A stretch of 43,330 nt of DNA from Chromera velia. Taxonomy: Eukaryota; Sar; Chromeraceae. The stretch spans positions 1 through 43,330 of the forward strand of contig JAHBMJ010003579.1 of the NCBI GenBank assembly GCA_018398765.1, given 5' to 3'. Below are positions 2,582 through 21,162 of the stretch, piece after piece; within the stretch, counting starts at the first letter, position 1, and each line of letters opens with the position of its first letter. The position numbers and the translations under genes are program-made. Under the pieces are notes generated by a model that was given only the letters and a program-made list of their open reading frames with translations, was not told where the DNA came from and searched no databases.

Positions 2582-5500
2582 GTGAGTTCAGGTCCTTGCA
2601 TGAGTCTTTTGCCCTTCTTCGGGTCTTCTCTTCCTCTATGTCATATCTGACTTCTGTTTTTTGTTCCCTTCCTTCGACTTGTCTCCATGACTGTTGGTTG
2701 CGTGTCAGGTTGGTCTGGTGGTCACTCGTCAGCTCTCTCTGGTGCCTGTGAGAATTGTGGTGGACAAATACAGGGAGACGCTGATGAAAATCTTCAACCA
2801 GAGTGCCCGAAGGGGGTGGGATCAGGGTACGTATTTTTTGTTTTTTGAAAAAAAAAAGAATTCTGTATTAAAATAAATGCATGCACAATTAAAGATGTAT
2901 TCCTCCATTCATACTCAAAACGTAATCAGTTATCTGTCCAGTCGATTTCTTTCTCATGCAGACACGCATATGAATATGAAGAGGTCGTAGACGCAGGGGC
3001 GTGCATCCACAGTTGCACATGCAGCCGTGCGTGCATGTAGGCGTGGAGGTGCACAAACAAAAACAAACATGCAGCTCACGAGTTTGGGCCATTTAGACCA
3101 GAAAAGGCGATTAAGTTCATCGAATTAATTTTTCTTTTTTCTGTTTGTCGCTTTGATTTCTTTCTGCTTCTTCATAGATCTTGTGACCCTTCTTTGTTTG
3201 CACTTAATTCTGCAGGACCGCAAATGTCGATGCAATCTGTTCTGGTGTTCCTGGGACATATCGGCATTCGACATCTCTTGCCTTTTCCTCTTCTGGCAGA
3301 ACTTCTTCTCTGCTATCGAGTGGGGGTGGGTACGCGGGTTTGCATGGGAATTCTTTTTATGTATGTATGTATGTATGAATAATTCTGTATGCATGTAAAA
3401 CGAATTCTGTATGAAAATGAATCCGTACACCGAGTGGGGGTGGGTACGTGGGTCTGCATGGGGGGAATTGTCGATCCATCGATCGATAGATGCACTTGGT
3501 TTCCTTTTGTTCTCTTCTCTTCTCTTCCTTTGTTTGATTTCCCTGTGTTCCCCTCTTCACCCCTACTGTGTATGATTTCTTTATTTATTTCGTCTGTGTG
3601 TCCGTCCGTCCGTCCGTCCGTCCGTCTGTGTGTCCGTCCGTCCGTCCGTCTGTCTGTCTGTGTGTCCGTCCGTCCGTCCGTCTGTCTGTCTGTGTATCAG
3701 TCGATGTGTCTGCATGCGTTTGATCTGTCTCGATCCATTTCAGCCTTTGTTTGATGACCCGCTGGATGAGTGAGTCTGCGTGCGTGCCTGGATAGGTGGA
3801 TGCATATATCCTCCTCTGCAGATTTGCTTTGCAGTCTCTTCTTTCTGCCATTCTTTGGGACTGCTCACGCGAAGGAAGGCATGACGAGTGTGTGTGTATA
3901 TTCAGGTATGACGAGTGTTTGTGTGTATTTATGATTTTCGATCCTTCGAGTGCATGCATGGATGCAGGACATTTCTCGACTCTCGTTCCTTCCGTTTTTT
4001 GTGGACCTCCTTCAACCTCAACGGAATCCTTCCCTCCAATCCAATTCCAACGAACATCAAGAGGAAGACGGAGAGGGCGACGGGACGCAGAGGGTTTTCT
4101 CGACTTCCCCCACGGTTGGGAGGCTGAAACCGAAAGTGCAGAATAATAATTCGATTCTTGTCGACAGAGGTCGAGGACAGAGCCTATCAGCCGCTGCGGG
4201 GACAGACGGAGACAAGGGCGGCAATTTTCCTCTGGAAAGTTTGACTCTGAATAATCAAAGGGGAACTGAGGGGACAGCAGTAGAAGTTCCTAGCAAAGAG
4301 ACGACTCAGCAATCAGACGGGGAGAAGAAGAACAAGAAGAAGAAGGCGTTGAGCATCGTCCTTCCTGACAGGGGCCCCCCACTCACATTCATGATGCCCC
4401 CCTTAACACATTTGGTCAGTGCAATCACCGATTGAGTCTGCATGCCTAGGCGGGTAGAAAGAAGCATATGTGTCCGTGTGTGTGCTCCTAGGCGGGTAGA
4501 AAGAAGCATATGTGTCCGTGTGTGTGGGTAGAAAGAAGCATATGTGTCCGTGTGTGTGCCCGTATGCACGCCTGTATACAAGCTCTTGCACACACATGCG
4601 CAAAGCACATTGCCTCTTGTGTCGCAATCTGTGTCCGACCGTCACCTTTCCTCGCCTCCCTCAAATTGCATAGACAGTTGGTCCGTCAGTTCGCCTGCCC
4701 TCTTTATTCTTCTTGCCTAGCTCACTTCATTTCAATTCATAATTTTGCACGCATCTATTTTCATACAGAATGAATGAAAAATAAGACTGCAATTATTCTT
4801 CTTGTTTCACTTCAATTCAATTCATAATTTATATTCTCTGCACAGACCTCCTTAATTCCTCACCGGATCTTTAGCAAAATTTTCCTCTCTCCACTTGTTT
4901 CTTCCTTGCGGAAGGAACAGAGAGTATGCGTACCCACACGTATTGATGAGCTTTGAGGAAAGTCTCCTTGGTCGCACACAAGGATTTAATCCCCTTGTTT
5001 GCTCTCCCAAATTCTGTATGATGAAAATTCTGTGTGAAAATGAATGCATCCATACACGCTCGATCGATCGATCAGGATTTTCCAGAGGTACTCAGTTTGA
5101 TCGGAATGCTGCCCTTTTGCAACGAGACCAGTCCAGATACCATAGCGTTTATTTTCATACAGAAATCTTTTTGATACATACAAACACATTAGTACATACA
5201 TAACTGTATGCAGGATTTTCCAGAGGTACTCAGTTTGATCGGAATGCTGCCCTTCTGCAACGAGACCAGTCCAGATACCATAGCGTTTATTTTCATACAG
5301 AAATCTTTTTGATACATACAAACACATTAATACATACATAAATGAATGCAGGATTTTCCAGAGGTACTTAGTTTGATCGGAATGCTGCCCTTCTGCAACG
5401 AGACCAGTCCAGATACCATAGCGAAGGGTCTCGACCAATTCCTTGTCCACTTTGTTCTCAAGAGAGGGAGGGAACCCTTCAAGGCGCCTCAGGCGGTCAG

Positions 5501-6782
5501 TCGGTGTAGCTCTCTCTCTCTGTGTCAGTCAGTCAGTCAGTCAGTCAGTCAGTCGGTCAGTCAGTCAGTCGGTCAGTCAGTCAGTCAGTCAGTCGGTCAG
5601 TCAGTCAGTCGGTCAGTCAGTCAGTCAGTCAGTCAGTCAGTCGCCTCGACAGACAGACAGACAGACAGCCCCACAGAATGCATGAATGGAGAATCGAATA
5701 AATGAAGGAATTATGGAATGCCTACATTCATGCAACATTGACACAGTGACAGCCGCATCCTGTTGCAGTTCTGTTTTTTCTGTCTATCCCGCACTTCCTT
5801 TCTCTAGCCTTCCCTGTCTCCCTTCCAGCATTACAGTCATACTTATCATACTTACAAGGACTGCATGGGAGAGGTAACGGGTGACAGGCACATCAACAAA
5901 CATCAAAGCGCTCGAATCAAGCAATGCAGGGATGGATGCAGAGGACGTGCTATGCATGCATATCAATGCACACATTCCCTTCGGTGTTCATTCAGGGCGA
6001 AGAGTCGACAGAGAAGTCGCCGGCAGAGAAAGAGAAAGAGAAGGAGAAGGAGGCAGCAACCAGGGCGGGCTCTCCATCTCCTGCCTCTCCCCAAGGACGC
6101 AACAGCCCCTCAGCAGCCGCGGCAGCAGCAGCCGCAGCAGAGACTCCGGAGAGGGTCATGCTGAGGGAACTGGAAGCAGAGGAGCTGGAGGAAGGAGAGA
6201 AGGACGAGCAGGAACGCAAAAATCTAGCTACCAGGACGCATATAAATTCTCTTGGTTGGTCTGTTCACGCAGTACAAGTCAGGAAGGAATCAAAGCAGCA
6301 TGGGTGGGAATTAGGCAGAGAGGAGCTTCAAAGAAGAGACGTGCGACGTGAAGCAGATTCTGAGAGAAGAGAAGGCAGACTAGCTGTCTATCAGAAGGAA
6401 GGCTAGTAGCGTGGGTAACCAGTCCATCTAACGGCTCGAAGAAGCGGAGGGCCAATCTGGGGGGGGGGGAGGCTTAGGTTTTCCATGCGTGTCTGAGTGT
6501 GTGGGCTTGTTCGTGATCTTGTAGCTGGCAGCATCTGTGTATGTATTTACTTTCATACAGAATTCGCTCTGTATGAAAAAGAATTCTGTATGAAAGTAAA
6601 TACAGGGCTTGTTCGTGATCTTGTAGCTGGCAGCATCTGTGTATACGCGAACACGAATCATTGCCTGTGTGCGTTTGGTGACGTGTACACCCGTGTTCAA
6701 TTGTGTAGATTCGTGTATGCGCGCGCGCGTGTGCCTGCATGCATATGCATGTCCACGTTTGTACGCATGTGCACTTCTGTGC

Positions 6783-6821
<39 letters not shown>

Positions 6822-7024
6822 TTTGTGTGCAGGCCGTGTTACTGGACAAAAGGAGCAGACGGAAGAGGAGGTGGGCTATCTCTTTCTGGCTGTGTCTTGG
6901 TTGTGCTCTGTTTGTCTATTTGTGCGTGTGTGTGTGTGTGTGTGTGTGAGTGAGTGAGAGAGACAGACAGACAGAAAGCTACACACACACACACACACAC
7001 ACAAACAAACAAACAAACAAACAA

Positions 7025-7059
<35 letters not shown>

Positions 7060-9961
7060 TAACGCCCATCAATGACCATCGTGACATTCGGGTGCTTTCG
7101 CTTCTGTGAAATTTGATAAAAGATATCAAACTTTGAAGCAATCAATGTTTTCCCTCGAACACTCCCACAATCATCATCATCATAGCGCACAAGAGCATGC
7201 AGCCATCCTCGATCGACTCCTGCCTGCCTGCCTGCCTGCCTGCTTGGTGCATGCATCGATTTTCATACAGAATTATTTAAATTTTTAGGGAGGAAAATTA
7301 ATGCAAGCATCGATCCTGCCTGGTGCATGCAGGTGTGGATTCTCCGTTTTGAAAAGAGCCTCCACACAGACTTTCAAAGGGTTCGAGTGAATCCGAAAAG
7401 GGTGTTCCTTTGAACGTCTGACTGGGAACACAGAACGCCTACTAAACACTATAAAATCGCTAGATATAACCGCTAGGTAGATAGAAATCACGTACTTCTG
7501 GGCACTAGTCTGGGCAAATGAATCTAAATGCCTAGAGTCTAACTGTTGAGCAAGCAAACATGACTGCTACACAAGCAAATGTAAGCAAAAAAGCTAGCTA
7601 GTAGTCCTAAGGTTTGGCCACTTTAGGCGAGTATTCGCTAGCGTGCTCCTAGCTTGTAATATAACATGAATGCTCACAGACTGCCCTTTGCCATTGGGAT
7701 ACGATGGCTGGCGGGTTTAGTCACATCATCATCATCATCAGGCAAAGGGTACTGTAGGGTACTGCTCATAGCGTCCCAGGCAGCCAATTAACATGGTAGC
7801 TAGGATTGTAGTAGTGCTAGAATCTGCTACTAGAGATTAATTAAATACGTGCTAGCATTTACCAAGTTTTTAACTTATATACGTCTAAAAGTTTAAATAA
7901 AAAAATATGATATGGTCATGAAAAAATATATAAGTAAATATATAAGTCTGATTTGCTATGATTAATTTGGAAAAATGTAATTAAAAAAAATCATTTATGT
8001 AAAAGTGTTACTAAAAGTTTTAAGAACCTCTACAAGTTATAAGCCTAGTATAGTATGGAACCCATCATTGTCATCAATCAATCAATCAATCAAAGTTATG
8101 GTCCTTTCCATAACTAGTTCCGTAATCAAAGCATTAGAATGTATTGAATGCGCCATTTGGCATAAATTTCTGATCTTCACTAGGTTTTTCAGATAATCAT
8201 TTGAAGCAACCATCCCTTTTGATGCAGTGGGATGCACATAAGATATTTTTTTAATAGATATCAGAACTCTATACGACACTAAATACGATGTATACATAGA
8301 CGGGTTTTACATACCTATAGAAGTTGTTTATACTAGAAGCCTGAGTTATATTATACTAAGAAATGGTGTAAGTATTAGGTAAATTAAGTAAGTGTGATTC
8401 GATTTTAATGATGTAACAAATTAAAATTTGATCGATTTTGATCAACTTTTTGAATTATTATACATGCAGTATATGCACTCAGCATTCTTTTTTGCCACTT
8501 CGAGGGCTGCACCCCTCCCAGTCTTACGCGAAGCCTGCAGGAGGACCTGGTATAGGCGATTCGGAGGATGCGAGGGCTTTCAGGAGGGTGCACCCGAGCG
8601 GCTGCTTGTGGGCAAGAAACGCCTTGAAAGCGATGCGGAAGCCCTGGGAGCTAACTGCTGCTTAGTCTAGGAGAGCGGTAAACGCGGCGGCCGCCCTTGT
8701 CACCTTAAAATTGGGCCCGGGGTGAGTACCAGCCGCGGGAGCAATACCACATCCTTAAACAAATTGGTGAACACCGTGCTCAGACATCCCCTACACAGGG
8801 TTCCCATGGAGATCTTGGCCAGTTACCTACAACTCGATGCTTGAGTTGTAACTCTCTGAGTCATTCATATGAGGGAGCTCACATGCTCAGCAAGCGGCGC
8901 GCTGTGCCCACATGACGTGGTCTGCTGCTGCGGCTTGGAGGTTGAATGACTTCACTTCCTGGAGAAGAGTCTCCTGCTGAGAGTAGAACCTCTCATGGAC
9001 CCCCTACACATGGTCATTCAGGAACTCGTGGCAAGCGTTAGAGACGTTCTACTCGCTGATGGCTGCTAAGATCTTTTTAGCCTCATACACCACCCTGCGG
9101 TAGCAAATTCGCTTCCGTAGGTGCTTGAAGATGCTCTTCCCGGTGCGAGAGGCTGCTTGGGCTGCAACATGGCACACGTCCTTCGCCACCTGCTTCTAAA
9201 GGCTATCAACGACCTTCTGCATGTACCCCTTGTGCCTGCCCGAGGGCCTGGTTCATACAGGGCTTCTATCTGCTCGACCTCCTTCTTTTCCAAGCTCCTC
9301 ACAAGCTTTTCGAGACTCTGAACTCTCTCTCGTTCTTTGCCGAGGGCATGCGCACTCTCTTGAGCTTTGAGCACAGCTGTCTGTCCGCAGCTTCAGCCCT
9401 CTTCCCTGCATCCAACTCCCCCCTCCATACTGCCTGCAGATCGCACTTGAGCTGTGCAATGACCCCCCCTCAGGAACCGGAGGGTTCGTTGGCCCAAAGG
9501 CGACTTCAGAGCCAGCATGCACACTGCTCGCCATGTCTCTTCCCCCGGAACCATTCCCGCTGTCCCCATCCTTCTCCCGTCTGCGCTTGACTTTCCTACC
9601 CTCCCCTTCTCCCTCACCCCTCTCCGTCTCCATCTGCTCATATGGGGGCTGCAGCACCTTCTTGATGATGTGGCCCAGTCTGCGATGCTTGGCAAGATCT
9701 TCTTCCAGGAGGCTCTTGAGAGCCTTCAAGAAGATAGGACTGGCTGCGTGGGATTTTTGGGGCTGGGATTCAATTTTGGCCCACCTGCCTCCCGTAGGCA
9801 ACCATCTTGGTCTTCACCCAGATTGATCGGTCTGCAATTCAATTGAATGAAGAGAGCGTTGCCATGCAGCAGAGTTAAGCACATTCATACAGTAGGCGTA
9901 ACTCATTTTAGCTTCATATGGTGACTGTTTCTTCCATCGTTCATTTCTTTCTTTCTTTTCT

Positions 9962-9993
<32 letters not shown>

Positions 9994-10103
9994 TCCTTCT
10001 TTCTTTTTTTCTTTCTTTCTTTCTCTCTATCTGTCTGTCTGTCTGTCTGTCTATCTGTCTGCCTGCCTACCTGTCTGTCTGTCGGTTGGTCGGTCGGTCG
10101 GTT

Positions 10104-10144
<41 letters not shown>

Positions 10145-10145
10145 T

Positions 10146-10197
<52 letters not shown>

Positions 10198-10215
10198 TGT
10201 ATGTGTGTGTGTGTA

Positions 10216-10246
<31 letters not shown>

Positions 10247-13200
10247 GTGTATTGTGTATATTGTGTATGTGTTTCTATCTCTCTGTCTCTCTCCCCTCTT
10301 TCTTTTTTTCTTTCTTTCTTTATTTATTCTTTTCTTTCTTTTTTTCTTCCTTTCTCTTTTTTTGTCTTTTGCTTTCTTCCTTACTTCCTTTCTTCCGTTT
10401 GTCCTCCTTCCAGCCTTCCGTGCCGGCAAAGCGCTTATGGCCTGACGGACTTGATTTTTGAGTCCTTGTTCATCGTCTCATAAGTGTTGTCCTCCCGTTT
10501 TTGGACTGCTGCCATACAGGCCAATTACCGTGGCGCCTTCTCCCCGCCGCTTGCGATCTTGCAAACATTCTTGGGGAATCGACTGTTGAAATCAGTGTCC
10601 GTAAAAAAAGAGGGGAATCCGATGCCGCCGCCCACCTTCTCCTGCTTGATTGCTTAAATAAATTGTGTTGCAGTGAAGGTGGCGATCCCTTTGAGGGTGT
10701 CTATCTGCTCCTTCGTTAGACTGTCTGTATCATAGAAATTCTGCTTGTTTAAGAGTGTGCACGAAGCACACTTCACGAGCCTTGGGCCTAAAGTCTCTTG
10801 CCCCTCACCCTCCTTCATTAGTATATCTAATGGTACGTCAGCAACTTCGCGGGTGTCCAAAGCTGCCGAGTTCATCACACAGGGTCTGTTCAATGTTCAA
10901 CACCCTGTGATCGCTGGCCAAGCTCAATCAACTAGGACAAGGCTGTGGTTGTTCACCAAAAAGTTTGAGTGGTATAGACTCTCAGTTCTAGGCTAAAGAC
11001 GAGAGATTGTACGATGGAGTCAGCTTTACATAGAAGTTGATTGTTCCTACTTTGGAGATTCTGTCTGTTCTGCCTCACTTTATACTTCTGTACTTTGATT
11101 GATCAGACTTTTCCTGTCTGATTCAATCAAATGCATGCATGCACTTTGATTGATCTGCATTTGAGACTTATTTGGTTGGGAACATAATGCACCTGGCTTA
11201 ATTTTTTTGATTTTGCTCTGCATGTGCGCGTTCTCCCGTGCTTTGGTCAATCTGTCAGTCAGGCGGCGGCGGGATACTAAGATATCAGACCCCACAGGGC
11301 CGAACTTCTCACACACCCCCTGTCTCGACAACGTCTGATTTTTTCTCTTGTTTCTGTCTCTGTATGCAGGACTTTATGCGTTTGTGAGCGAAGAACAATG
11401 TCCTTTCAGAGAGGAATCCTGTTATCTCAATGCAATGTCAACTTGTAGTATATTTATCTGTCTGTCTGTCAATCTCTCTCTCTCTGTCTGTCTGTCTGTC
11501 TGTCTTTCTGCTTGTCTAACTCCTCCTCAGTCCCCATTTGAGTCTTTGTCCATCCGTAGGCTTCATGGTTTACCCTGTTCGGACAGACAAACTACTAGGT
11601 AAATACTAAAATTGCACTAGCATTTAAATAGAATTTACTAGGGAAACACTAGGGTAGTTAGGGTATGTTACACTGTAGGTGCTTAATATTTCTAAAATCA
11701 TGCTAGGGCATGCACTATAGTAAAAATAAAAAATGTCTAACATTTTTATAGCATCAAGATTAGTACAGTTTCAGCAGTTCCTAGCAGCAGTTCACTATTT
11801 TAACAATAGAAGTCAATTGACTTATAATGAAGAGATATATGGGTATGCATGACTTGAGACATCGATCAGGCATCAATCTCATCATCTTTCTGTCATCCAA
11901 CCTAAATAGCTGTGAGCTTGTTTCTGCATGACCGCATAATCGACAGTTAATTCGATACTGCATGCACGTCGCTGCTGGCCGTTGTCGTATGAGTTCGTCT
12001 CTTACGCACCCTTGTCGTTCTTTTGTCGATCATTGTAAAATGTTATAAATGAGAGACGTCCTCAACTTTCCAGAAGTTAGCATCTATCTGTATATTTGTT
12101 TAATCAAGCTTACATCACTGTAAACAATCAGTTTCAAACAATTTTATCTTCTGCTATTATACCAAGTATTATCATAGATGTTACTATGAGACATACTAAA
12201 AAAATTTTGTAGCATTTTTTTTGTTTGCTAAAATAATGCCTAGTATTTTTTTTTGTTAAAAAAAAAATTCTCAGTATTTTAATAGTATTTACCCAGATTG
12301 TCCTAGAGTATGCAGGGCCTCTATCATAGTAGTTTGACGTAGAGCACTTACTGGATGCCTTGGACCATAATAACGGGCTGCCTTTAGCGCTTCTTCCACT
12401 CACAGACCTCTTGACCTTGAATGGAGGTATTTTTTCCAACGCGCACGGGCACCCAAACATTGTGTATATTCCAACCCCCATGCAATCCCACACATGGAAA
12501 TCCATCAACAACAAAGACACACACGTTGATCCATAGCAAGCTCAATCAAGCCAGCCTCTTGTGTATTGATCTGTATTGTAATACATGCAAGCTTTGTATT
12601 CAATGCGTCTCTCTGTATTGCAATATGCATGCACGATGGAGATCCGGTTGGGGATGTCTTTCTGGTTCTGTATTAATTCAGCCAGTTTGCTCAGCCTACG
12701 TACAGAAGATAAGTCCTGCCTAACTTAGCTTCTCTGACGCACCAAATATACACAACGTGCTGCAACACATGCTAGATCTGCTCGCGTGTTTCCTTCTGTT
12801 TACAACTAACAGTGTGATGTACTCTTAAAGACTTCCTATATTTCTGTCTCTCTGCACACGGGACGATCTATAACAACCACTCATCTCTACAAGTTCGTTC
12901 GTCCCGAACGAATTCAGAAACAAAGTCTTCATTCACGCTTTCCTCATTTTATACCTGCAAGCACACCATTTTACTTCATCTCAATGATTCCAGCCACCTA
13001 CACCGGCAATGAAAGACTCCTCGACAGTTTGGATTCTGTCGGACATATGACACGAAGATGCGCTGAGAGAAACAAAGAATACAGAAGAAGATCGAACGTC
13101 GTTGAACGTATGAAACATCAAGGAGGTTCACTCTCGTTCTTTCCCTCATTCATTTATCATGGGTTTACAAGATGGTCTGCCCCTTTAGTATGGATGCGGC

Positions 13201-16200
13201 TTCCAAACCAAAGGCCATCAAGCTGACATTTGAGAAACGGTCATTCATGCGTATGGACACAAAATTTAATCCAAAGACGAAGACGGGCGGTTAATTGGCG
13301 CAAATTACAAAAAGACATGAGGTGAGAAAGAATAGAGGTGAGAATCGAACAAACAACTTTTCCACATACACGCTTCTGATTGTTGCTCTCCCTTCTATAT
13401 TTCTTCTTCACTTCATTTTTTCATCATTTTAACTTAACTCAATCCTCTTCTTTTTATCTTTCTCCCTTCTCCTTTTCTTTCTATTCTCTTTCTTTTTCTC
13501 CTTTAGCTTTACGTATACGCTCAAAGCTTATCGCTCTCAATCTTTCTACTTCCCTGCTCTCTCTCTCTCTCCCTCTCTCTTCTCTTCTCAGTTCTCTTCT
13601 GTCTTCTCACTTCTGGGTCGGTCAACAGTACATCTTCCTTTCTCTAACTCATTTCTTCTTTTCTTCTCACAGTGCAAGCACCTCCTGCCCGCTCTGCCAT
13701 CTTTTCAGGCTTCCACTAGCATGCCCTCACAGAAGACTTTCCTTTCTCCCTCTTATCGTTCCGTTTGGCGCCGTTTGGTTGGTTCGAGAATCTGCGTGTT
13801 GTCTGGTTCTACCCTTATCTGGCTTGTCTTCTTTTTTTTGCTTTGATGCCGGTAACGGGGGAAAAGTTTGGAGTGCATTCGCTCTTTTTCAAAGTGATCT
13901 CCGGCCCTGCACATTCATTCTCTCCTAAAAGCAGTCTTGGGTTCATTCTATGAATACAAAGTCCGACACAGGGAGAAAACAAGGCATCGTTGTTTTTTGA
14001 AAGGCAAGTCTTCATGCATGCGCTTCTCTGTTTCACCTGGCTTCCTTTTCTCTCAGTTTCTCTCTATCTTCTCCTTCCACGCCCTTCTTTTCTGTTCATC
14101 TTTGTTTGCGGTGTTTCTCTCTCTCCAAGTCCATTTCTTCCTTGTTTGTTCCATCTTGTATTCTCTCTCTTACCTTTCCTCCCTTCCTCTCTGTTTCTTT
14201 CCCTTCTTGCTCAACGGTGGTCTATCTTCTATCTGTGTTTATGTTGAGTTTGTTTGTCTTTGCTTCTCCGTTGTTTCCTCTCTTACTTCTATTTCTGCTA
14301 CGTTTTGAGTTTTCTTTTTTCTTGCTCTTCCTTTTGTTTTCATCTATTCTTCAGAGCTGCAAGCCCAGCCTGGGCGCCTGTAGCCTTCCAGCACTTACAA
14401 TCGCTGCTCTCCCTTGACTGTGGCTGCAGGGGGGGGAAATCAACTCCGAAGCTAACAACATACATGAACATGAAAAGAAAGAGGTCAATATCAATTCAAC
14501 AAGAAATAAGACTCACTGGGTTTTTTCTTTTTTCGTCACTTGTATGATGAATCTTCGCTTTAGGTGCTTCTCTCTCTGTCTCTTTACTGTTCTTTCCCTT
14601 TCTTTCTTCACATGCACCAGCCCTCATACGCACACACTGAATGCAGATTTAGCCCCCCTCAGTTCCGTTTGATTTTACCAATACCCTACAATCTCTCTTC
14701 TGCCCATTAACAAGAGAGACATCAACATATTAAGCATGCACATAAGCAAAGAAGATAAGTCAAAGCGGTTCTGTTCCATCTCTCTTCCTCTTTTCCTTTT
14801 CTTGCATGTGGTGTCTGCATGACTCACTTTTTGGTGTTCCTCAGCCTCCGAGCATTCTGTCTCTGTATCTGTCCTGGCAGGTGGACAGATGGGTAGACAT
14901 GCAAACAATATGCTCCCTTCCCTTCTACATGCAGTTCTTTTCTCACCGCTTTTTATGAACCCCCTCTTCCAGGGTCTCTGCTGGCTTGTGGCTCCGGCCT
15001 TCCGAATATTGGCTTCTTAGACATTTTCCAGCTTTCTTTTCTCTTTTTCTTCCTTTCTTTGAAATCTCGTATCTCTTGTTTTCTTGTGTTGATCATCACG
15101 AACCTTTGGGTTTTCGAAACGCTTGGGGCCATTTAGCGACTAGCGGATAGAGAGGCTTCCTTTCTTTGAAGTCACCCTCACTCCAGCAAGATTTCCCCAT
15201 TCCTGCTGGAGGCACTGTAAGCATCTGACTGGTTCTCTACAATTTTTTTTTGACCTGCGCATGACTCTCTCTCCTTTCTATGCGTCGCGTTGAAGCACCT
15301 TTCTGATTTCTTTCTTTCTTTCTTTTCCTTCGACCACCTTCTCCATTACCGTTCCTTCTCTTCCTTGAGGCATCGCGTCGCCGAAGCGAAATTGTCCCCC
15401 GTTTCAGAGACCGAAGTCTTTTGCGACCCTTCCCCCTTTCTTTTCTGTTAATCACTTTCACGATGAAACTTTCTCAGTTCCTTGAACTCTCTTTTTACTG
15501 TCTGAGGTTATTGTCATATACTATCATTGGACTGACTTGAGGATTACTAAGGATAGCTCGGCAGGTCGACTTCCCTCCGGGGACCTTTCCGATCTTGTAG
15601 AAGAAAATTTTGCTCTCCCCCTTTTCCCTCCTTCCCTCTGCTACCTCTGCTTCTCCACAAAATTTGTTATCTCCGTCTTCTCCTTAACCTCCCCGGGCCC
15701 CTTTTTAGCAAATTTCAAACTTCCAACATCGGCTATACATCGATAAATGTTTGAGGGTTTTTTTATGCATACCGCATCCCCATATATGAGAAACGGATCT
15801 ATAAATAAATATAATAACTCTATTCCAGAAGATGGACAGGTGTATGTGTGTGGGTGGGCTATGTGAGCGTGCAGATCGTGCTTGTTCTTGCAGTCTCACG
15901 AGTTTCTCTCTGATTAGCCCCAATCGGCCCCGCTAAGCCCTGCGCCATACGTGCGTACCTATAACTGCCGACGCGGGACCGGCCTTTTACAGAGATCCTA
16001 ATACCCCCTCATGCATGCATGCAGTGGATCTTACAGAGATTTAAGGAGTGCAAGATCCACTGAGGGGGTTAGGATCTCTGTAAAAGGCCGGTCCGGCGTC
16101 AGTAGTTATATGCACATGCGGTGCGCGGGGGGCCGATCTCTCGCATCATGTATACAACTACCGATGCAAGACCAGCTTTTTACAGAGATCCTAACCCTCT

Positions 16201-17558
16201 TATACAGCGGATCTTGCAGAGATGCAACTAGGAGATGCAATTATAAGGGTTATATAGGATCTCTAGTCCTGCATCGGCAGTTGTACGTGCGTGCACAGCG
16301 TGGGGAGCCGATCTCTGTACCAGCGGTGCATCGGCCCCCCGTACGCCGCGCATGTATATATCTACTATACTTACTGTGGGCCAGGGAATCCTTCAAATCC
16401 GCTGGAGGGGCACTTCCTTCCCAAAATGCCATCTCCGTAGCCGCTCCCATAGAGCTTGCGCAGGATTTTTCTTCGGCGACTCTGACAAGCGGGGGCCCCG
16501 GAAAGTCCATTACTATATTATACATTCGCTTTCACGGACGAGCCCTTTTTTTTTAGCCATACGCGCGCGCGTGCACACGTTCTTTTAGACACAAACCACG
16601 CACCCCGCGACCGGCCCCAGAAAGACTACCGCCTAAAATGGTCCCGCAAGCGAAAAATTAACCAAACGCTATACGGGTGAGTGCCTTAATTGCGCACGCC
16701 TGCGAAAAGGATGAGTGCCTTAGAATTGAAATTATCCAGCTGGGGACATTTGACGGGCTATAAAATTGGCATAAATGTTTGATGGGCCAGGGATTTTTGA
16801 TGAGCCAGGCTATTTTGACGGGCCACGCTATTTTGACGAGCCAGGGATATTTCACGGGCCTGGTGATCTTGACCGGCTCATTTTTTTGACAGGCCAGGCT
16901 AGTCGATATACAACTGCCGACGCGGGAGACCAGCCTTTTACAGAGATCCTAACCCCCTCGGTGGAGGGCATGCAAGATCCATGCACCGCGAGGGGGTTAG
17001 TAAAAGGCCGGTCCCGCGTCGGCAGTTAATTTATATCTGACGGTTCGGGGATGCATAGCACGTCCCAGCATACCGGCCGTAGACTGCACGGCATTGGGAG
17101 TCGTGCCTAGACCTGTTTGCCTAGTCGGCAGTTAATTGTACGTATGCACGTGTGGCGCGGGGCCGATCGGAGAGAAACTCATAAGACTGCAAGAACAAGC
17201 ACGATCTGCACGCCCACATATATAGCCCGCCCACACACATACACCTGTCCATCTTCTGGAATAGAGTTATTTATTTATCGATGTATGGCCGATGTCGGGA
17301 GTTTCGCCAAAAGGAGGTTGAGGGGGAGACGGAGACGGCAAATTTCGTGGAGAAGCAGAGACAGCGGAAGGAGGGAGGGAAAGAGAGAGAGGAAGATTTT
17401 CTTCTACAAGATCGGAAAGGTTCTCGGAGCGAAGTCGACCTGCCGAGCTATCCTTAGGTCAGTCCAGTGACAGTAACCTCAGGCGGTAGACGCTCGGAGG
17501 CAGAAAGCGACTCTGTAGCTCTCACGCACATTCTCTTCCTTTATGTGTAGCTGTGTGC

Positions 17559-17619
<61 letters not shown>

Positions 17620-20600
17620 CGTCTGTGTGTGTGTCGAATTCCTACTGAGGTAGATTTTGTTCCTTCTGCCCTGATGTATCAACATGAAGCGTTTCATACG
17701 CATGCAAGCTCCGATGGATGCATTCGTTCGCCCGTCTCCTACCGTAACGACAAATTGGAACCAGCAAACGTGTCCACAGCATGGGCAGATGCATACCCGC
17801 TCATGCAAAGCCTCTGCTTGGCCGGGTGAAGTATCTGTTCCCTCCGTCTGAGATCGATCGATCGATCGATCAGCTTGACGGACAGCCAATGCATGCATGG
17901 AGCTAGGGAAAGGGGATAGGACACAGTGCTAGGCCAGGTTTTTCGTAAGCAGAGAGCACGTGACAGAAGGGGGAGGAAAGAGAGCATATGTGTGTGCCGC
18001 TGTGTGTTTAACGGGTGTACACGTCTCTGTCGCAAATCATATCTTTAGGGGACATGTTTGCGTGACTGAATTTTGCGTTCTCGCTTCCTGTTGCAGAGCC
18101 TTCGAGACATCTGGGGGCGTTGAAACGGACACAGTGACAGATGCTTCCATGGTTTTCTGCAACACCTTCCAACCAACTTTGATCGAGACTCTGGCTGCTG
18201 GACGTGCGATCAATCACTTCCCTGGGTGAGTGCTTGAAGGGTTTCTCTTACTTTACGTCTCTTTTCCACTCTCCATCCCTTCGCTTGTTATAGTCTGTCT
18301 CTTTCTCCCAATGCCGCCACCTTCACCTGCGTCTCTTCGTTGAAAACTGCTGCAGATAGAAAACATGGAAAACCTCTTTTTTGTGCTCTTTCTCCCCAAG
18401 GACCGACCGACCCCCCTCTGTCTGCCTTTATTTTCATACAGAATTTTGAATAAAATAAAATAAAATAAAATAAAAAAATAAATGTATTCTGTATGAAAAC
18501 CTCTTTTTTGTGCTCTTTCTCCCCGATAATCAACCGACCCCCCTCTGTCTGCCTGCAGTCTCTTCGAGATCACTCACAAGCACCGGCTGGCAAGGACTCT
18601 GAGGGAGGGGGGGGGGCAGGGCGTCTCCTCTGAGGATGGAATGACGCAGACAGCTACGGAAAAACTGAGTGCCAGCGAGAATACAGGCAAATCGACGCTC
18701 GGAGTTCCCTGGTTCCTCCCCGTCTCCTTCGTCTTGCTGGAGCAGCTCCCTGAGCTCTGTCGGTTTGTTCGGCATGATTCAGGCGGGGGTGAGGGGGGAG
18801 AAGAGTGGAGAGCAGCTCAAACGGTGTTCTCCCAAAGACAGAGAACCCCCCCCCCCTTTTCGAATCTGGGTTTTGATCGAAGCCGGGAAGGAGTGGGGGA
18901 GGGAGGGGTCACAGACTGCTGACTGAAGTCAATGTGCTGACTGCTCTGTCTTCATGCACTTCCTTGGTCTTCCTCCCAATTACCCACAGCAGGAAGTTGT
19001 TTGACTTCTTCGGATGGATTTGATCGTCATCTTCTTCTTCTTCTTGAGAGGTCTCGAGCAAGACAGCCCGTCCCTTTCAGAAATTTACGACGGAGCAGAA
19101 AAGGCCGGAGAAGGAGACACTGCATTGAAAGCAGGCGCTTCTGGTAGTTCCGGACCAACATACACGGACAGAGACAGAGACAAGGACGAAGGGAATGTGC
19201 ACAGGTCGACAGAGGGGAAAAGAGAGACTGCTGAGGGAGAGGATGAAGAGTGTGACGCCAACGACCGCAAGGTGAGTCGGGAGAGAAGAATGGGGATCGA
19301 AGGAAAAGCTAGCGTGTGCATGTGTGTGTTTGAGCTACATGCATAGACATAGATGTGTATGCAAGTTTTTTTGTGTGGGAGAGATAAAGTGTGCGTGTGT
19401 GTGCAAGAGTGTGGACGCGTGGATGTGTCGAGGTCCCCCCCTTCCCCCCCAATCCCTCTCTGCAGACCCCCAAACGAAAGACCACCGAGATAAACAGGCA
19501 CCGACACCAAAGAGAACCCCCCCAAATGGCCTCCCTTCTCCTGCCCCCCCCCCCCAAATTCCGATCGGACTCTCATGTCCTCTCTGAGTACATCCATAGA
19601 CCCCTCTTGGTGGGAGGACACAAACTCAATCTCAGACTCTATGCACTCATCACCAGGGTCGGGCAAACAAATCACAACACGACCGCGGCGTCGTCATACA
19701 GACAACGAAAGAATCCCAGCAAGAAGACAGAACATCTCTCCTCTCCTTTAAAGAAAGAGAGAGCCTCTCAAGGTACTCACTCTTCAACCGCGCCTTTGTT
19801 CTTTCTCTATAGAGAGGGCCTCGTCCGATTTGCCAGTGAGGTCTATCCTTCAAGTCATTTCTCCTCCCCGTCTCCCGTCTCCTCAACGCCCCCCCCCCCC
19901 CCCNGAAGAGAGAAGGAAAGAGAAAGATGATGCAGAGGGAGAGACAGAAGAAACAAAAAAAACAACAGCCAAAGGAGCCTCATCGCATCTCTCGACAACC
20001 CATTCATCCATCTGACCAACAACAAAGTCAACGGGACCAATCCTAGGTCGGTGAGTTGGTGTATGGGTGGGTGGGAGGATGCATGAGCAGCTGCATGGTT
20101 TTGTTTGCCAACATTTGCTTTAGCAAGGACAAAACATAATTTGAAAAAGCATGCATATGACCGTCTGCATGGTAGCTACAGAGGCATGAGCCCCCTAGCT
20201 TGTTTTCCTTGCTTTTGGCTTTTGAACCGCGCGCGTCTCTTTCTTTCGTTTTGTGCATGTTCCTCTGTTTCCACCCACCCACTCACTGCATGGTGCGTCT
20301 TTCTGTAGTGATAGGTTTACGGCAAGAGGGGCAGAAAATCTCGATCACGCGTATTCCAAAAAATGCATGGGTACATTGATACGTCCCGAGTGGCTGCACG
20401 GCTGCATGCAGGGCGAGAAGACAGAGCGGCCTGGGGAGTAACTGGACGGTGTCGATGCTCCGAGAGGCCCTGAGAGCTGAGGGGAGACGTGGGGGTGAGT
20501 GCCTTGAGAAGAAAGTACCTGAGGGTGAGTGCCTTGAAGAGAGCACTGCTGGAGATGACATTTTGAGGGACGCAAGTTCAGCATGGGCATCTGTAAACAC

Positions 20601-21162
20601 TGGAGGTAGAAGAGGCGCTGCGTCCTGAGCAGCCCGCTCCCGTTTCTGTCACCATTTTGGAGGAGGGCATCGTGGAAGGGGGAGCACATTCGGTGGAGCT
20701 GTCTGGGAGGAAGTGGGCTCCTGGGGGGCTGTATGGTGGCGTATTTGTCGGTTGGTCTCTGAGACTCTGGAGGCGGCAGCGGGACCGGTCCGAAAAGCGA
20801 TGGAAGCAAGAGAGGGCAAGAGGAGACTGAGAGGGGTACACGATTTGGGTGTGAAGACTGATCTGGAAGGTGGGATTGAAGGGCGACCTGAGAGTGTTGT
20901 AGAGAGGGAAGAGGGCGTTGGGTCTGTTGTGTGTTTTTCTGTGTTGGGTTTTGACGTTTTGCTCGATGCAGATTTGCATCCTTGGCTCTTGGAAGTGAAC
21001 GCGTGTCCCGGTTTGGAGACTGAGAGCAAAGGAGGGGCTATCGTATATGAAACCGATTCTCTGGTGCATGACCGCATGCTGTTGGATTTGTTCGCTCTTT
21101 TGGAGACAGATCGCCAAGAGGTGCAGCAATCAAAGGAGAAAGGGGGATGGCAAGTTGTATGA
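2405..21162 (+). CDS. Tubulin-tyrosine-ligase-like (TTLL) protein, about 14 exons
   Basis: TTL-family enzymes are ATP-dependent amino-acid ligases that add tyrosine, glutamate or glycine to tubulin and other proteins in the cytosol. The model joins exons 2405-2581 (weak), 2709-2826, 3216-3325, 3968-4414, 5352-5495, 5996-6277, 6833-6870, 18097-18225, 18559-18788, 19051-19271, 19466-19869, 19936-20046, 20412-20605 and 20663-21162, all on GT..AG introns with agreeing phases, giving about 1,034 residues. Residues up to about 438 are unrecognised and partly low complexity. The TTL domain follows in the expected order: NHFPG (about 477), YIHRPLLVGG..LNLRLY (about 674), YREGLVRFASEVY (about 745), FIHLTNN (about 792) and LLDADLHPWLLEVN (about 968). 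The lysine motif W-[IV]-x-K-P normally found before YIHRPLL was not found. Family membership is firm; substrate and activity are not. The start codon is uncertain. Confidence 0.85.
2709..2826 (+). CDS. TTLL gene, N-terminal exon
   Basis: The open frame runs from a GTGTCAG acceptor at 2708 to a donor GTACGT at 2827, ending in phase 1. It encodes about 39 residues including VDKYRETLMKIFNQSARR, an amphipathic helix-like segment. A second acceptor (CGTCAG at about 2732) is in the same phase and would shorten the exon by eight codons. The phase-1 end fits the next exon exactly, forming a Gly codon across the junction. Confidence 0.6.
3216..3325 (+). CDS. TTLL gene, N-terminal exon
   Basis: The exon lies between the acceptor CTTAATTCTGCAG and the donor GTGGGTACG at 3326 and encodes a hydrophobic segment (SVLVFLGHIGIRHLLPFPLL within about 37 residues). 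It starts in phase 1 and ends in phase 0, agreeing with both neighbours. It lacks the length and flanking charge typical of a clear membrane span, so it could equally be a buried helix. Its last bases and donor are part of a 32-bp sequence repeated at 3431-3462. Confidence 0.65.
3317..3462 (+). repeat. Filler element inside a 32-bp direct duplication
   Basis: The sequence at 3317-3348 recurs at 3431-3462 with two mismatches. Between them is 82 bp of AT-rich filler containing GTAT repeats and the motif GAATTCTGTATGAAAATGA (3402-3420). The left copy contains the end and donor site of the preceding exon, so a second donor-like site now lies inside the intron. Confidence 0.75.
3597..3695 (+). repeat. 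GTCC/GTCT tetranucleotide microsatellite
   Basis: Tandem GTCC and GTCT units interrupted by GTGT fill this part of the TTLL intron between 3325 and 3968. The interruptions recur regularly, which suggests growth by duplication of larger blocks. Confidence 0.9.
3968..4414 (+). CDS. TTLL gene, 149-codon linker exon
   Basis: The exon is bounded by an acceptor at GGATGCAG (3967) and a donor GTCAGT (4415), phase 0 at both ends. It starts with a short hydrophobic stretch (LSFLPFFVDLLQ), then a long polar, Asn/Gly/Glu-rich segment and a lysine-rich run (EKKNKKKKALSIVL), and finishes with PPLTFMMPPLTHL. This is typical of the disordered insertions in apicomplexan proteins. No domain is recognised. 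Confidence 0.65.
4446..4560 (+). repeat. Tandem repeat of 41/32 bp
   Basis: About 2.7 tandem copies of a unit beginning CCTAGGCGGGTAGAAAGAAG and ending in a GT-rich tail. The third copy lacks the first nine bases. It lies just inside the intron after the exon ending at 4414. Confidence 0.85.
4704..4830 (+). repeat. Filler motif inside a duplicated flank of about 40 bp
   Basis: The left flank 4704-4745 and right flank 4793-4830 are near copies (TTATTCTTCTTG then a TTCAATTCATAATTT segment), separated by filler containing TTTTCATACAGAATGAATG (4758 on). The duplication is less perfect than at the other loci, with a small indel, so it may be older. Confidence 0.55.
5073..5423 (+). repeat. Exon start triplicated, 138-bp period
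   Basis: A 75-bp sequence beginning CAGGATTTTCCAGAGG occurs at 5073-5147, 5211-5285 and 5349-5423. The two 63-bp spacers (5148-5210 and 5286-5348) are near identical and begin TTTATTTTCATACAGAAATC. Only the third copy continues into the rest of the coding exon. The first two contain the acceptor and the start of the exon but run into the spacer, which brings an in-frame stop. Confidence 0.9.
5352..5495 (+). CDS. TTLL gene, 48-codon exon
   Basis: The exon starts after an ATGCAG acceptor and ends before a GTCAGT donor, in phase 0 at both ends. It encodes DFPEVLSLIGMLPFCNETS followed by a helix-like segment KGLDQFLVHFVLKRGRE, with the composition of a folded region rather than a linker. Its first part is the source, or a copy, of the upstream duplications. 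The donor opens directly into a long CAGT array. Confidence 0.75.
5497..5660 (+). repeat. CAGT/CGGT tetranucleotide array at a splice donor
   Basis: Starting at the donor itself, the intron contains some 28 CAGT units with regular CGGT variants, then a short CAGA run. Each repeat recreates GTCAGT, the same six bases as the real donor. Confidence 0.9.
5996..6277 (+). CDS. TTLL gene, Glu/Lys/Ala-rich linker exon
   Basis: The acceptor is TTCATTCAG at 5995. The frame encodes a charged run (GEESTEKSPAEKEKEKEKEA), a Ser/Pro stretch, nine consecutive alanines and a Glu-rich helix (LRELEAEELEEGEKDEQERK). This is a disordered, then probably helical linker. The phase-0 end is needed for the next exon; GTCAGG at 6278 and GTACAA at 6272 are both possible donors, and the frame stays open to about 6406, so the exact 3' end is unsure. 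Confidence 0.6.
6503..6644 (+). mobile_element. Palindromic filler element with 40-bp perfect flanking duplication
   Basis: This is the cleanest example of the repeated structure in this gene. The 40 bp at 6503-6542 recur without mismatch at 6605-6644. The 62-bp insert (6543-6604) has perfect 23-bp terminal inverted repeats: it opens GTATTTACTTTCATACAG and ends with the exact reverse complement, both arms meeting at GAATTC, around a short core containing CTCTGTATGAAAAA. No protein could be encoded by it. Confidence 0.8.
6786..7060 (+). repeat. GT, CA, CAAA and CAGA microsatellites
   Basis: GT runs (about 6786-6820 and 6925-6950) flank the small exon at 6833-6870. They are followed by CA, CAAA and CAGA runs up to 7060. 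GT runs on one side and CA runs on the other could pair in the transcript. Confidence 0.85.
6833..6870 (+). CDS. TTLL gene, 38-nt micro-exon
   Basis: The interval lies between a TGTGTGCAG acceptor (preceded by a GT run) and a GTGGGC donor. In phase 0 it encodes AVLLDKRSRRKR plus two bases, AG, that complete an Arg codon with the first base of the exon at 18097. That phase agreement is the main support. Because the exon is tiny, has a poor pyrimidine tract and is followed by an 11.2-kb intron, it could be spurious. Confidence 0.4.
7239..7331 (+). repeat. Filler motif inside a 17-bp duplication
   Basis: CCTGC(T/C)TGGTGCATGCA at 7239-7255 recurs at 7315-7331, and GCATCGAT also recurs. The intervening filler starts TTTTCATACAGAATTATTT, the same motif as at the other loci. 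It lies at the beginning of the giant TTLL intron, next to a CCTG microsatellite. Confidence 0.6.
7340..8430. other. AT-rich intronic repeat region, no gene seen
   Basis: There is no credible coding sequence here. The segment contains many CTAG/GCTAGC words, a run of ATC trinucleotides (about 7726-7740) following GGCGGGTTTAGTCAC, and a CAAT tetranucleotide run near 8075-8095. The ATC run after a short GC-rich stretch resembles the 3' end of a short or long interspersed retroelement. A similar tail occurs, reversed, near 22018-22060. Confidence 0.4.
8480..9830 (-). pseudogene. Decayed unidentified coding remnant
   Basis: On the minus strand several frames carry protein-like sequence that shifts frame repeatedly. 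From about 9800 down there is FLKALKSLLEEDLAKHRRLG, then a charged Glu/Lys/Arg run; further on a coiled-coil-like segment (SLEKLVRSLEKKEVEQIEAL, about 9245-9310); then, in another frame and with stops, FKHLRKRICYRRVVYEAKK and FYSQQETLLQEVKSFNLQAA (about 8940-9150). The base composition is more GC-rich than the flanking AT-rich DNA. This looks like one old coiled-coil protein broken by frameshifts and stops. I do not recognise the family; it may be a mobile-element protein, since it sits in a repeat-filled intron. Confidence 0.4.
9940..10400 (+). repeat. Long polypyrimidine/GT microsatellite tract
   Basis: About 450 bp consist almost entirely of pyrimidines on the plus strand: CTTT runs, then CTGT, CGGT and CT runs, with a GT/GTAT block at about 10180-10265 and further CTTT runs. 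The open frames through it are artefacts of the repeat. Such a tract could adopt triplex or slipped structures. Confidence 0.95.
10534..10893 (-). pseudogene. Unidentified coding fragment with in-frame stop
   Basis: Read on the minus strand, a frame from 10893 encodes about 79 residues including LDTREVADVPLDILMKEGEG and YDTDSLTKEQIDTLKGIATF, then meets a TAA at 10654-10656. It continues in the same frame with AIKQEKVGGGIGFPSFFTDT and FPKNVCKIASGGEKAPR before the next stop. The composition is that of a real soluble protein, and a single internal stop suggests recent decay. No ATG or splice structure is evident and I do not recognise the family. It may belong with the broken coding remnant at 8480-9830, the two being separated by the microsatellite. 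Confidence 0.45.
11000..15498. other. Intronic region with no supported gene
   Basis: This part of the TTLL intron contains a CTGT run (11457-11515), AT-rich sequence with CTAG words (11600-12300), ordinary sequence (12400-13350) and a long pyrimidine-rich stretch on the plus strand (about 13380-15480). The pyrimidine bias yields long Ser/Leu/Phe-rich open frames, for example one from 13380 to 13928, that I regard as non-coding because they have no motif and follow the composition. Confidence 0.5.
15749..15800 (+). mobile_element. 52-bp mini-insertion with 6-bp target duplication
   Basis: These 52 bp (GTTTGAGGG...ACGGATCT) interrupt the left arm of the foldback element and are absent from the matching place in the right arm. 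They are flanked by ATAAAT on both sides (15743-15748 and 15801-15806). A second 52-bp copy, 44 of 52 bases identical and with no length difference, lies at 42601-42652. Confidence 0.7.
15961..16110. repeat. Hairpin module 1 of the foldback element
   Basis: The two halves are near-perfect reverse complements over about 50 bases: CGGCCTTTTACAGAGATCCT on the left and its complement at about 16070-16090. An inner hairpin (GTGGATCTT / AAGATCCAC) closes the loop. Transcribed, it would give a long stem-loop. Confidence 0.85.
16154..16284. repeat. Hairpin module 2 of the foldback element
   Basis: This is a diverged copy of module 1: ACAACTACCGATGCAAGACC at the left pairs with GCATCGGCAGTTGT at the right, with TACAGAGATCCTAACCCTC shared with the other modules. 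The stem is less perfect than in modules 1 and 3. Confidence 0.75.
16776..16900. repeat. 18-bp tandem repeat, about six to seven copies
   Basis: Units of the form GGGCCAGGCTATTTTGAC repeat with small changes between hairpin modules 2 and 3. On the minus strand they translate as a hexapeptide repeat (WLVKIA, WPVKIA, WLIKNP, WPIKH), but the open frame is short and there is no other sign of coding. Confidence 0.75.
16910..17029. repeat. Hairpin module 3 of the foldback element
   Basis: ACTGCCGACGCGGGAGACC pairs with GGTCCCGCGTCGGCAGT, and CCTAACCCCCTCG with CGAGGGGGTTAG, giving a stem of about 45 bases with a small bulge. It is closer to module 1 than to module 2. Confidence 0.85.
17558..17633 (+). 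repeat. GT microsatellite
   Basis: A GT run of about 75 bp with a few interruptions, just right of the foldback element, inside the TTLL intron. Between here and the exon at 18097 I see only a GATC run (17853-17872) and unremarkable intronic sequence. Confidence 0.95.
18097..18225 (+). CDS. TTLL gene, first exon of the TTL domain
   Basis: The acceptor CTTCCTGTTGCAG ends at 18096 and the donor GTGAGTG starts at 18226. The exon encodes ASMVFCNTFQPTLIETLAAG then RAINHFPG. The NHFPG segment is the conserved TTLL signature (usually NHFP followed by a short linker and a basic segment). The exon begins with one base and ends with two bases of split codons, consistent with its neighbours. Confidence 0.9.
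18368..18554 (+). mobile_element. Filler element inside a duplication of about 60 bp, next to an acceptor
   Basis: The 60 bp at 18368-18427 recur at 18494-18554 with one internal difference of a few bases. Shared blocks are CCTCTTTTTTGTGCTCTTTC and CCGACCCCCCTCTGTCTGCC. The insert (18428-18493) opens TTATTTTCATACAGAATTTT, has an AAAAT repeat in the middle and closes ATGTATTCTGTATG, so its ends are inverted copies of the common motif. The right-hand duplicate supplies the pyrimidine tract of the next exon's acceptor. Confidence 0.85.
18559..18788 (+). CDS. TTLL gene, TTL-domain exon
   Basis: It follows the acceptor TCTGCCTGCAG and continues the domain with FEITHKHRLARTLREGGGQG, a polar insertion, then GVPWFLPVSFVLLEQLPELC. 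The last part matches the TTLL segment in which a Pro-Thr/Ser-[FY]-x-L strand precedes the ATP-binding region. The chosen donor (GTGAGG at 18789) is in phase 1. Downstream of it, in another frame, a GC-rich stretch reads FRIWVLIEAGKEWGREG, vaguely like the missing lysine motif but without the lysine. Confidence 0.8.
19051..19271 (+). CDS. TTLL gene, acidic insertion exon
   Basis: The acceptor is CTTCTTCTTCTTGAGAG and the donor GTGAGT. The exon encodes about 74 residues starting LEQDSPSLSEIYDGAEKAGE and ending in a Glu/Asp-rich run (KRETAEGEDEECDANDRK). It sits where the ATP-binding lysine strand of TTLL enzymes should be, but contains no such motif, so it is likely a species-specific insertion. 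Phases fit both neighbours. Confidence 0.65.
19466..19869 (+). CDS. TTLL gene, central catalytic exon
   Basis: The exon follows the acceptor CCCTCTCTGCAG and holds the clearest family signatures: SEYIHRPLLVGGHKLNLRLY ALITRV (the ligase strand with the conserved Arg), then a polar insertion, then APLFFLYREGLVRFASEVY. A 42-base segment in the middle (19773-19814) has GT..AG ends but is in frame and encodes the conserved LFFLY residues, so I keep it as coding. The donor GTCTCC at 19870 gives the phase the next exon needs. Confidence 0.85.
19904..19904. other. Ambiguous base in a poly-C run
   Basis: A single N ends a run of about 20 C bases. It falls inside the predicted intron 19870-19935, so it need not affect the protein, but the local sequence length is uncertain. 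Confidence 0.95.
19936..20046 (+). CDS. TTLL gene, HLTN exon
   Basis: The acceptor is GATGATGCAG and the donor GTCGGT at 20047. In this frame the exon encodes a basic stretch, then SLIASLDNPFIHLTNNKVNG TNP, a close match to the FxHLTN signature of TTLL enzymes, whose Asn contributes to nucleotide and metal binding. The stronger-looking donor GTGAGT four bases further on would break the phase with the next exon. Confidence 0.85.
   Translation, partial: RERQKKQKKQQPKEPHRISRQPIHPSDQQQSQRDQS
20412..20605 (+). CDS. TTLL gene, TTL-domain exon
   Basis: It follows a GCATGCAG acceptor and encodes RRQSGLGSNWTVSMLREALR, the region after HLTN that in TTLL proteins reads roughly Gly-Ser-Lys-Trp-[TS]-Leu. 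A Glu-rich segment with two near repeats (GECLEKKVPE, GECLEESTAG) follows. A stop lies 21 bases beyond the proposed donor GTAGAAG in the same frame, so a short intron is needed here (see the next exon), or the copy carries a nonsense mutation. Confidence 0.75.
20663..21162 (+). CDS. TTLL gene, last exon with metal-binding motif
   Basis: The proposed 57-nt intron 20606-20662 ends in a pyrimidine-rich stretch and TTTTGGAG. The exon encodes WGAVWWRICRLVSETLEAAA, a polar insertion, then FSVLGFDVLLDADLHPWLLE VNACPGLE. The Glu and Asn of LLEVN are the family's metal-binding residues and both are present. The conserved C-terminal helix follows (DSLVHDRMLLDLFALLETDR), and the stop TGA is at 21160-21162. 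This is the strongest single exon of the gene. Confidence 0.92.

Follow-up and report, generated by a model that had tools for sequence, protein, structure and literature searches.

Background

Short elements bounded by duplicated target sequence are described as miniature inverted-repeat transposable elements (MITEs), as introners and as short interspersed elements (SINEs) moved by long interspersed elements (LINEs), and local sequence is also duplicated in paired-nick tandem duplication and in intron gain of the Rogers type. The feature considered here was encountered in Chromera velia, an alga related to the apicomplexans, in a stretch of 43,330 nucleotides that lies at the very beginning of contig C3413 (88,481 bp) and is called the window below. 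Its tubulin-tyrosine-ligase-like gene harbors seven short inserts, hereafter E, each of which lies between two direct copies of a piece of local sequence, hereafter D.

E resembles MITEs in being short, palindromic and present in many copies, with a family sequence and matching inverted arms. D is however variable, at 16-68 bp, instead of short and fixed, and the ends and centres of the inserts vary from copy to copy even at identical D, so that E fails two defining tests of MITEs, a fixed short duplication and fixed ends. Introners, such as those of Amoebophrya and the families in Gozashti et al. 2022, are likewise short; they lie at exon/intron boundaries of protists and algae and carry both inverted and direct repeats. 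The Amoebophrya introners display inverted repeats of 8-20 nt and direct repeats of 3-5 nt, in a paper that gives 10-15 bp for MITEs (PMC7789003), and duplications of 3-9 bp are reported for earlier cut-and-paste-like introner families (PMC9860276). By comparison, D averages 39.5 bp here, and the present units are at most candidate introns. SINEs moved by LINEs share with E the small size and a target duplication of variable length, but E is palindromic and shows no consistent tail by eye, and D has roughly double the length of the duplications of recent EhSINE1 copies (PMC2996970).

In mouse embryonic stem cells, paired nickases that leave overhangs of 46 nt are reported to lead to tandem duplications of different sizes, with second and third copies after repeated cutting (PMC5730883). 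The likeness resides in the size of D, comparable with these overhangs, in the varied sizes and in the gain of further copies over several rounds; the difference is that one specific palindromic family separates the copies here, no specific element being described in the extract of that paper. Rogers-type intron gain duplicates pieces of exon that can carry AG|GT (PMC4974935), but in the present units a repeated hairpin-like sequence stands between the copies, and for 14 of the 18 TGCAG signals close to the D start no GT follows. The full combination of features is absent from each of the compared systems. No such element is named in the titles and abstract openings among the matches listed for open-licence literature on Chromera transposons, introns, MITEs and introners, long target duplications, twin priming, intron gain and patch-mediated duplication.

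Genome-wide occurrence and dimensions of the D-E-D units

The D-E-D feature is real, widespread and unusual. The motif TTTCATACAGAATTC, which belongs to the arms of E, occurs exactly at 1,086 places (503 + 583) in the scanned assembly of 177.8 Mb and 4,040 contigs, and a reversed-sequence control occurs at 0. In the window, 15 places carry it with at most 3 mismatches, against 1.86 expected and a maximum of 5 over 100 shuffles.

Three samples of loci, cited below by handles such as L032, were used. The first gathered the sequences that best matched one insert (29 entries, 25 distinct loci), and a flanking duplication was present at all 25 distinct loci. The second was taken from the top of the motif list and comprised 20 stretches of at most 10 kb, containing 28 motif clusters (at most 1 mismatch); 27 of these showed the duplication under criteria looser than those of the null, and 6 of the 28, sorted by hand, were arrays. 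The third, drawn from the same list, comprised 18 additional short stretches, 16 of which passed a fixed score with the same criteria as the null. A long flanking direct duplication thus accompanies 43 of the 46 motif clusters of the pooled second and third samples. When the second sample was recounted with exactly the criteria applied to the null, 19 of its 22 single loci passed, while only 59 of 6,000 random positions, masked for simple repeats and for E, did so. Two of the five single loci failing the strict criteria (L040 and L045) miss only the limit on the entropy of D. The motif stands without a duplication at 5 of 55 single loci. At one locus lacking it, L032, a distant partner was sought across the 10 kb available, and the sole motif-like match, with 3 mismatches and 3.2 kb away, had a flank score of 9 and did not share the flank.

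These results bear on the first-pass annotation of the window, which had placed all copies with the clear motif between 2.8 and 18.5 kb; with 1,086 exact places, the motif is far from restricted to this gene. The same annotation had named two outcomes that would have spoken against its description, namely copies elsewhere in the genome devoid of duplications, or a motif forming the end of a larger element that contains the flank. The count of 43 in 46 runs contrary to the former, and the latter is at odds with the closure of D around only 39-93 bp at the 65 single loci described below and with the lack of a convincing partner in the 10 kb of L032. Its statement that the duplications are specific to each locus and far longer than those of cut-and-paste transposons agrees with a D of 16-68 bp (mean 39.5) at these loci.

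Measurements were made on 65 single insertions, arrays and failed rows being excluded (25 array rows, by hand; 5 loci without duplication; the nested L017, at ~2925; L058; L066). D has a median length of 40 bp (standard deviation 11.3), and the inserts have a median of 67 bp; the two lengths are uncorrelated (r = -0.05, n = 65). The inserts are AT-rich, with a GC content of 0.29 compared to 0.54 for D and to 0.52 and 0.51 for the two sides. The identity between D copies ranges from complete, at 20 of the 65 loci, to ~83%. Among the loci read in the first two samples, D sequences are unrelated from locus to locus. Tandem arrays of the form (D-E)n-D are frequent, and each array has a unit of its own. 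Finally, 27 of the 48 non-simple short-range duplications found over 242 kb contain the motif, a proportion that does not show exclusivity since 20 of the 21 stretches had been preselected for it.

Arms, centres and ends of the inserts

Read inward from each end, the arm consensus is approximately TGC(A/G)TTT(A/T/G)(C/T)TTTCATACAGAATTC, often continuing into TTTTTCATACAG or TTTTTCAGGGAG. As in MITEs, a short element thus carries terminal inverted repeats, and both arms are recognisable at most loci. The fullest centres contain CATACAGAGCGCTCCCTG, and centres also include sequence foreign to the arms, CATA repeats for example. With at most 2 mismatches allowed, 11 places carry the asymmetric centre TTCATACAGAGCGCTCCCTGAA, 5 of them exactly, and 0 carry a CATACAG/CATACAG palindrome. 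The comparison indicates that E is a defined, directional sequence and not simply a pair of arm copies that were primed independently; twin priming, a candidate in which one template would give rise to both arms, is disfavored by the lack of any place with the matching symmetric centre. The two bases preceding the arm core match between the arms of the same insert at 27 of 37 loci, against 11.1 expected (p = 5e-5, for positions picked after their variability had been noticed). Folding of eight chosen inserts yielded far better hairpins than shuffled sequences for five of them (z -6 to -15). Some arm ends read TGCATGCA, with an apparent difference between left and right, though the orientation is arbitrary; this end resembles a DNA motif bound by apicomplexan ApiAP2 factors.

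At 20 loci the D copies are identical throughout, over 672 nt in total, and these loci are taken as recent on account of this identity. Their 17 measurable centres are all distinct from one another, and at none of the 20 loci is the assembled 28-nt centre approached to within 4 edits. Those ends that could be measured deviate from the canonical start by -9 to +11 nt, a spread of ~20 nt. The exact start TGC(A/G)TTT is observed at 16 of 83 ends; ends frequently stop short of this start or run beyond it, TGCA is in some cases common to the end and the target, in others a second TGCA is added, and the fixed terminal nucleotides of a MITE are not seen. In the arrays L047 and L048, the centres differ though the D copies are identical or nearly so. 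Variable ends together with distinct centres at loci of identical D are not expected from a transposase working at fixed ends.

Splice-like signals in the duplicated pieces

A further property of D, on which the first-pass annotation is silent, is its content of splice-like words. The exon edges mentioned here are putative, having been read from the sequence. TGCAG is present in D at 27 of the 65 loci, against 4 and 9 in left and right flanks of equal length (p = 9e-7), and AGGT at 27 against 15 and 18 (p = 0.03), both probabilities being optimistic because the words were picked after the loci had been read. TGCA without a following G displays no excess (17, 15 and 13), which speaks against simple homology to the arm-end TGCA as the cause of the TGCAG enrichment. 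CAGGT is found in 17 of the 65 D pieces and in 6 and 5 of the flanks.

The edges of D are also placed close to such signals. Among 130 edges, those located 0-12 nt on the intron side number 20 for TGCAG (null mean 8.5, maximum 15 of 400), 19 for AG|GT (7.9, 15) and 8 for AG|GTNNGT (1.3, 5), and five control words all fell inside the null range. A splice-like signal, counted with words that were likewise picked once the loci had been read, is found at a D edge in 31 of 65 loci (null mean 15.1, maximum 25 of 400), the exon/intron-boundary location that characterises introners. Ten likely exon edges, nine chosen from 30 rows and L009, were translated: five gave matches above the Pfam cut-off (EGF, kinesin, DUF4215, PEP carboxylase and tyrosinase), two below it (PRORP and WD40-like) and three none. 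In the L045:7945 region, D resembles the end of a kinesin motor exon followed by the donor AG|GTAAGT and 12 nt of intron.

The bias toward exon edges may represent targeting, or it may be left by selection, insertions surviving where the duplicated splice signal still allows the gene to be read. The clustering of breaks near the splice signal favors some targeting.

Inserts of the window

All seven inserts named in the first-pass annotation were recovered, each bracketed by direct duplications of local sequence of 17-75 bp, those at 4704 and 7239 being weak and unconvincing when taken singly. Both bare motifs that it had placed near 2862 and 5011 were located as well. Its recurrent palindromic filler stands as a recurrent palindromic insert; the recurrent part is however the outer arm, the centre being variable, and a strong hairpin relative to shuffles was obtained for one of the four window inserts folded (insert 5). 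The features are as follows, with the strand indicated where it was noted:

2858..2872, minus strand: bare motif, flanking duplication absent
3317..3348: left flank copy of insert 1, 32 bp, 2 mismatches with 3431-3462
3349..3430: insert 1, exact motif at 3402-3416 on the minus strand, no strong hairpin on folding (z -0.7)
3431..3462: right flank copy of insert 1, direct repeat with 3317-3348
4704..4745: left flank copy of insert 2, weak, gapped alignment, 83% identity with 4793-4830
4746..4792: insert 2, degenerate, motif at 4759
4793..4830: right flank copy of insert 2, gapped alignment with 4704-4745
5009..5039, minus strand: two degenerate bare motifs, flanking duplication absent
5073..5147, plus strand: 75-bp unit of inserts 3 and 4, copy 1, resembling an exon edge (open frame after CAG); tandem repeat of period 138 with 97% matches
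5148..5210: insert 3, motif at 5153 with 1 mismatch
5211..5285, plus strand: 75-bp unit, copy 2, direct/tandem repeat
5286..5348: insert 4, motif at 5291 with 1 mismatch
5349..5423, plus strand: 75-bp unit, copy 3, sharing the open frame 5346-5705 with downstream sequence
6503..6542: left flank copy of insert 5, 40 bp, identical to 6605-6644
6543..6604: insert 5, the most evident hairpin in the window, one exact motif in each orientation, fold z-score -11.3
6605..6644: right flank copy of insert 5, 40 bp, identical to 6503-6542
7239..7255: left flank copy of insert 6, 17 bp, 1 mismatch with 7315-7331
7256..7314: insert 6, motif at 7261 with 1 mismatch
7315..7331: right flank copy of insert 6, 17-bp repeat of 7239-7255
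18372..18427: left flank copy of insert 7, ~56 bp, gapped, 91% with 18499-18554
18428..18498: insert 7, (AATAA)n centre
18499..18554: right flank copy of insert 7, gapped repeat of 18372-18427

The assignment of the host gene to the tubulin-tyrosine-ligase-like family is borne out by a TTL domain in the frame 20629-21159. A fragment of LINE-type reverse transcriptase (RT) is present on the plus strand of the window at 29798-30454 (RVT_1, E 8e-13). Four protein relatives were retrieved for it, three of them named Chromera velia CCMP2878 (37-76% identity) and the fourth nameless; a protein identical to the fragment was not found among the four. The window abounds in simple repeats, and bases are undetermined within TCTC repeats at ~35650-35830 (35830 being the position of the last of the 179 N of the window).

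Proposed mechanism and alternatives

We propose, with a probability of roughly 0.58, that E is a non-autonomous, near-palindromic mobile element entering at two nicks located ~40 nt apart, which are then filled in and imprecisely joined. Two nicks on opposite strands, on average ~40 nt apart, would create the break; fill-in of the overhangs would convert the piece between the nicks into the two direct copies of D; the hairpin element would be captured between them; and imprecise joining would provide each new copy with its own centre and slightly shifted ends. The length distribution of D fits a direct duplication of the piece between two such putative nicks. Fill-in of 3' overhangs by Pol alpha-primase has been reported (PMC8355091). 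The first-pass annotation had suggested widely staggered breaks, an idea that gains support here, and had left the choice between a mobile element and a repair filler. The asymmetric centre and the co-variation of the arms favor a propagating element, and the imprecise ends and fresh centres favor repair-like joining.

Several observations weigh against the proposed double-nick insertion. Filler captured by ordinary break repair is varied, as opposed to the one family seen here, and a dedicated step must therefore exist; no nicking enzyme was identified. The edges of D are defined by alignment, so that end offsets of a few nucleotides may be ambiguous. A symmetric CAGGGAG/CAGGGAG palindrome does occur, at 13 places with at most 2 mismatches (3 exact, 5 in one array), and the 20-nt arms differ only slightly less within a locus (2.50 mismatches) than between loci (2.93). 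Three of the eight folded inserts, all in the window, reach only z -0.6 to -1.2. Lastly, 3 of the 46 sampled clusters (L032, L058 and L066) do not pass, L058 having a short gapped duplication by eye.

Among the alternatives, a SINE-like retroelement, in which a short hairpin RNA would be copied into a nicked target by an RT of LINE or Penelope type and D would be a target duplication of exceptional length, arising from the second nick, is unlikely but retains appreciable weight. Under target-primed reverse transcription D is expected to vary in length by locus, as it does; ends are truncated or extended, some sharing the TGCA of the target, and the second TGCA is readable as a short repeat tail; and the LINE-type RT fragment of the window has named relatives among Chromera velia proteins. 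No poly-A or simple tail is however consistently seen by eye, one right end in L045 being T-rich, the duplications of recent Entamoeba SINE1 copies amount to 21 +/- 5 bp (PMC2996970), about half of the mean observed here, and the CATACAG/CATACAG centres predicted if one template primed both arms were not found at any place. It is also rather improbable that the D-E-D units are introners, where insertion of E and duplication of an AG|GT-bearing piece of exon would create a new intron free of scars. The excess of CAGGT in D is in keeping with it, as is the described gain of introns by AGGT duplication (PMC4974935), and at ~4816 of L034, D contains AG|GT and joining of the flanks opens a frame that the insert closes. 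The same is seen at other loci, and this frame test is not discriminating, 45 of 49 loci having some frame of at least 180 nt once rejoined. Against introners, most of the TGCAG signals near the D start, 14 of 18 having no GT, would duplicate an existing exon edge rather than an AG|GT site, and protein searches with the window gene and with the L034 gene gave no match.

A conventional MITE, mobilised by a DDE transposase and with the long duplications arising secondarily, would account for the inverted arms, the small size and the family sequence common to the copies. We consider it very unlikely: D has no fixed length and exceeds both the 3-9 bp given for cut-and-paste-like introners (PMC9860276) and the 10-15 bp given for MITEs (PMC7789003), the terminal nucleotide is not fixed even where D copies are identical, later tandem duplication would hardly be expected to double host sequence around almost every copy, and the part of the genome read yielded no recognisable larger or autonomous element bearing such ends, the scan for distant partners being limited. 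Growth of local tandem duplications or minisatellites around a coincidental AT-rich motif can invoke the frequent (D-E)n arrays (6 of 28 clusters) and the many simple repeats of the window, but the same arm recurs genome-wide (reversed control 0) while D is unrelated between the loci read, and as sole cause it is very improbable. An artefact of assembly or library at hairpins is just as improbable. The Chromera and Vitrella assemblies do derive from short reads (velvet, Illumina library; PMC4501334) and hairpins can be mis-copied; skipping or collapse nevertheless does not explain centres with non-arm sequence such as CATA repeats, nor D identities extending from 100% to ~83%.

If the double-nick insertion of a near-palindromic element is correct, the target duplication reflects a break of ~40 nt and not the few bases of cut-and-paste transposases, and the copies of the element are not copies at their centre. 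A link would be drawn between transposition, the repair of paired nicks and the origin of tandem repeats, and many insertions of different ages would constitute a natural system in which the splicing of duplicated exon edges, and their becoming introns, could be tested. A broader proposal can be advanced tentatively, as a possibility we would not yet favor: the hairpin DNA may be a mobile element of a new kind, inserted into genes at splice sites by way of two nicks ~40 nt apart; its tip would be rebuilt at each insertion, and it would copy exon edges across the genome, leave the host gene splice-able and seed locus-specific tandem arrays.

Additional observations

Two arm patterns yielded 0 exact matches in viral contigs, a collection from which records close to the genome of the window were possibly excluded. 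In prokaryote genomes one match was obtained, in a contig of an archaeal metagenome-assembled genome, and was taken as chance, neither duplication nor palindrome being visible by eye. Related or diverged structures may also be present in Chromera itself. At L035:6223-6346, a 32-bp duplication (5 mismatches) surrounds a 60-bp motif-free insert carrying CAGGGAGC, which may belong to a diverged sister family. At L045:6316-6443, a 31-bp identical duplication encloses an insert whose arms are strongly diverged (TGCATGCATTTAATGTATGAAAATG...), perhaps a degenerate copy that the motif missed. On the contig of the window, an array with 11 motif matches (at most 3 mismatches) is found at L006 ~2001-2756, corresponding to ~84720-85475 of C3413, near a single insert at 84220-84291.

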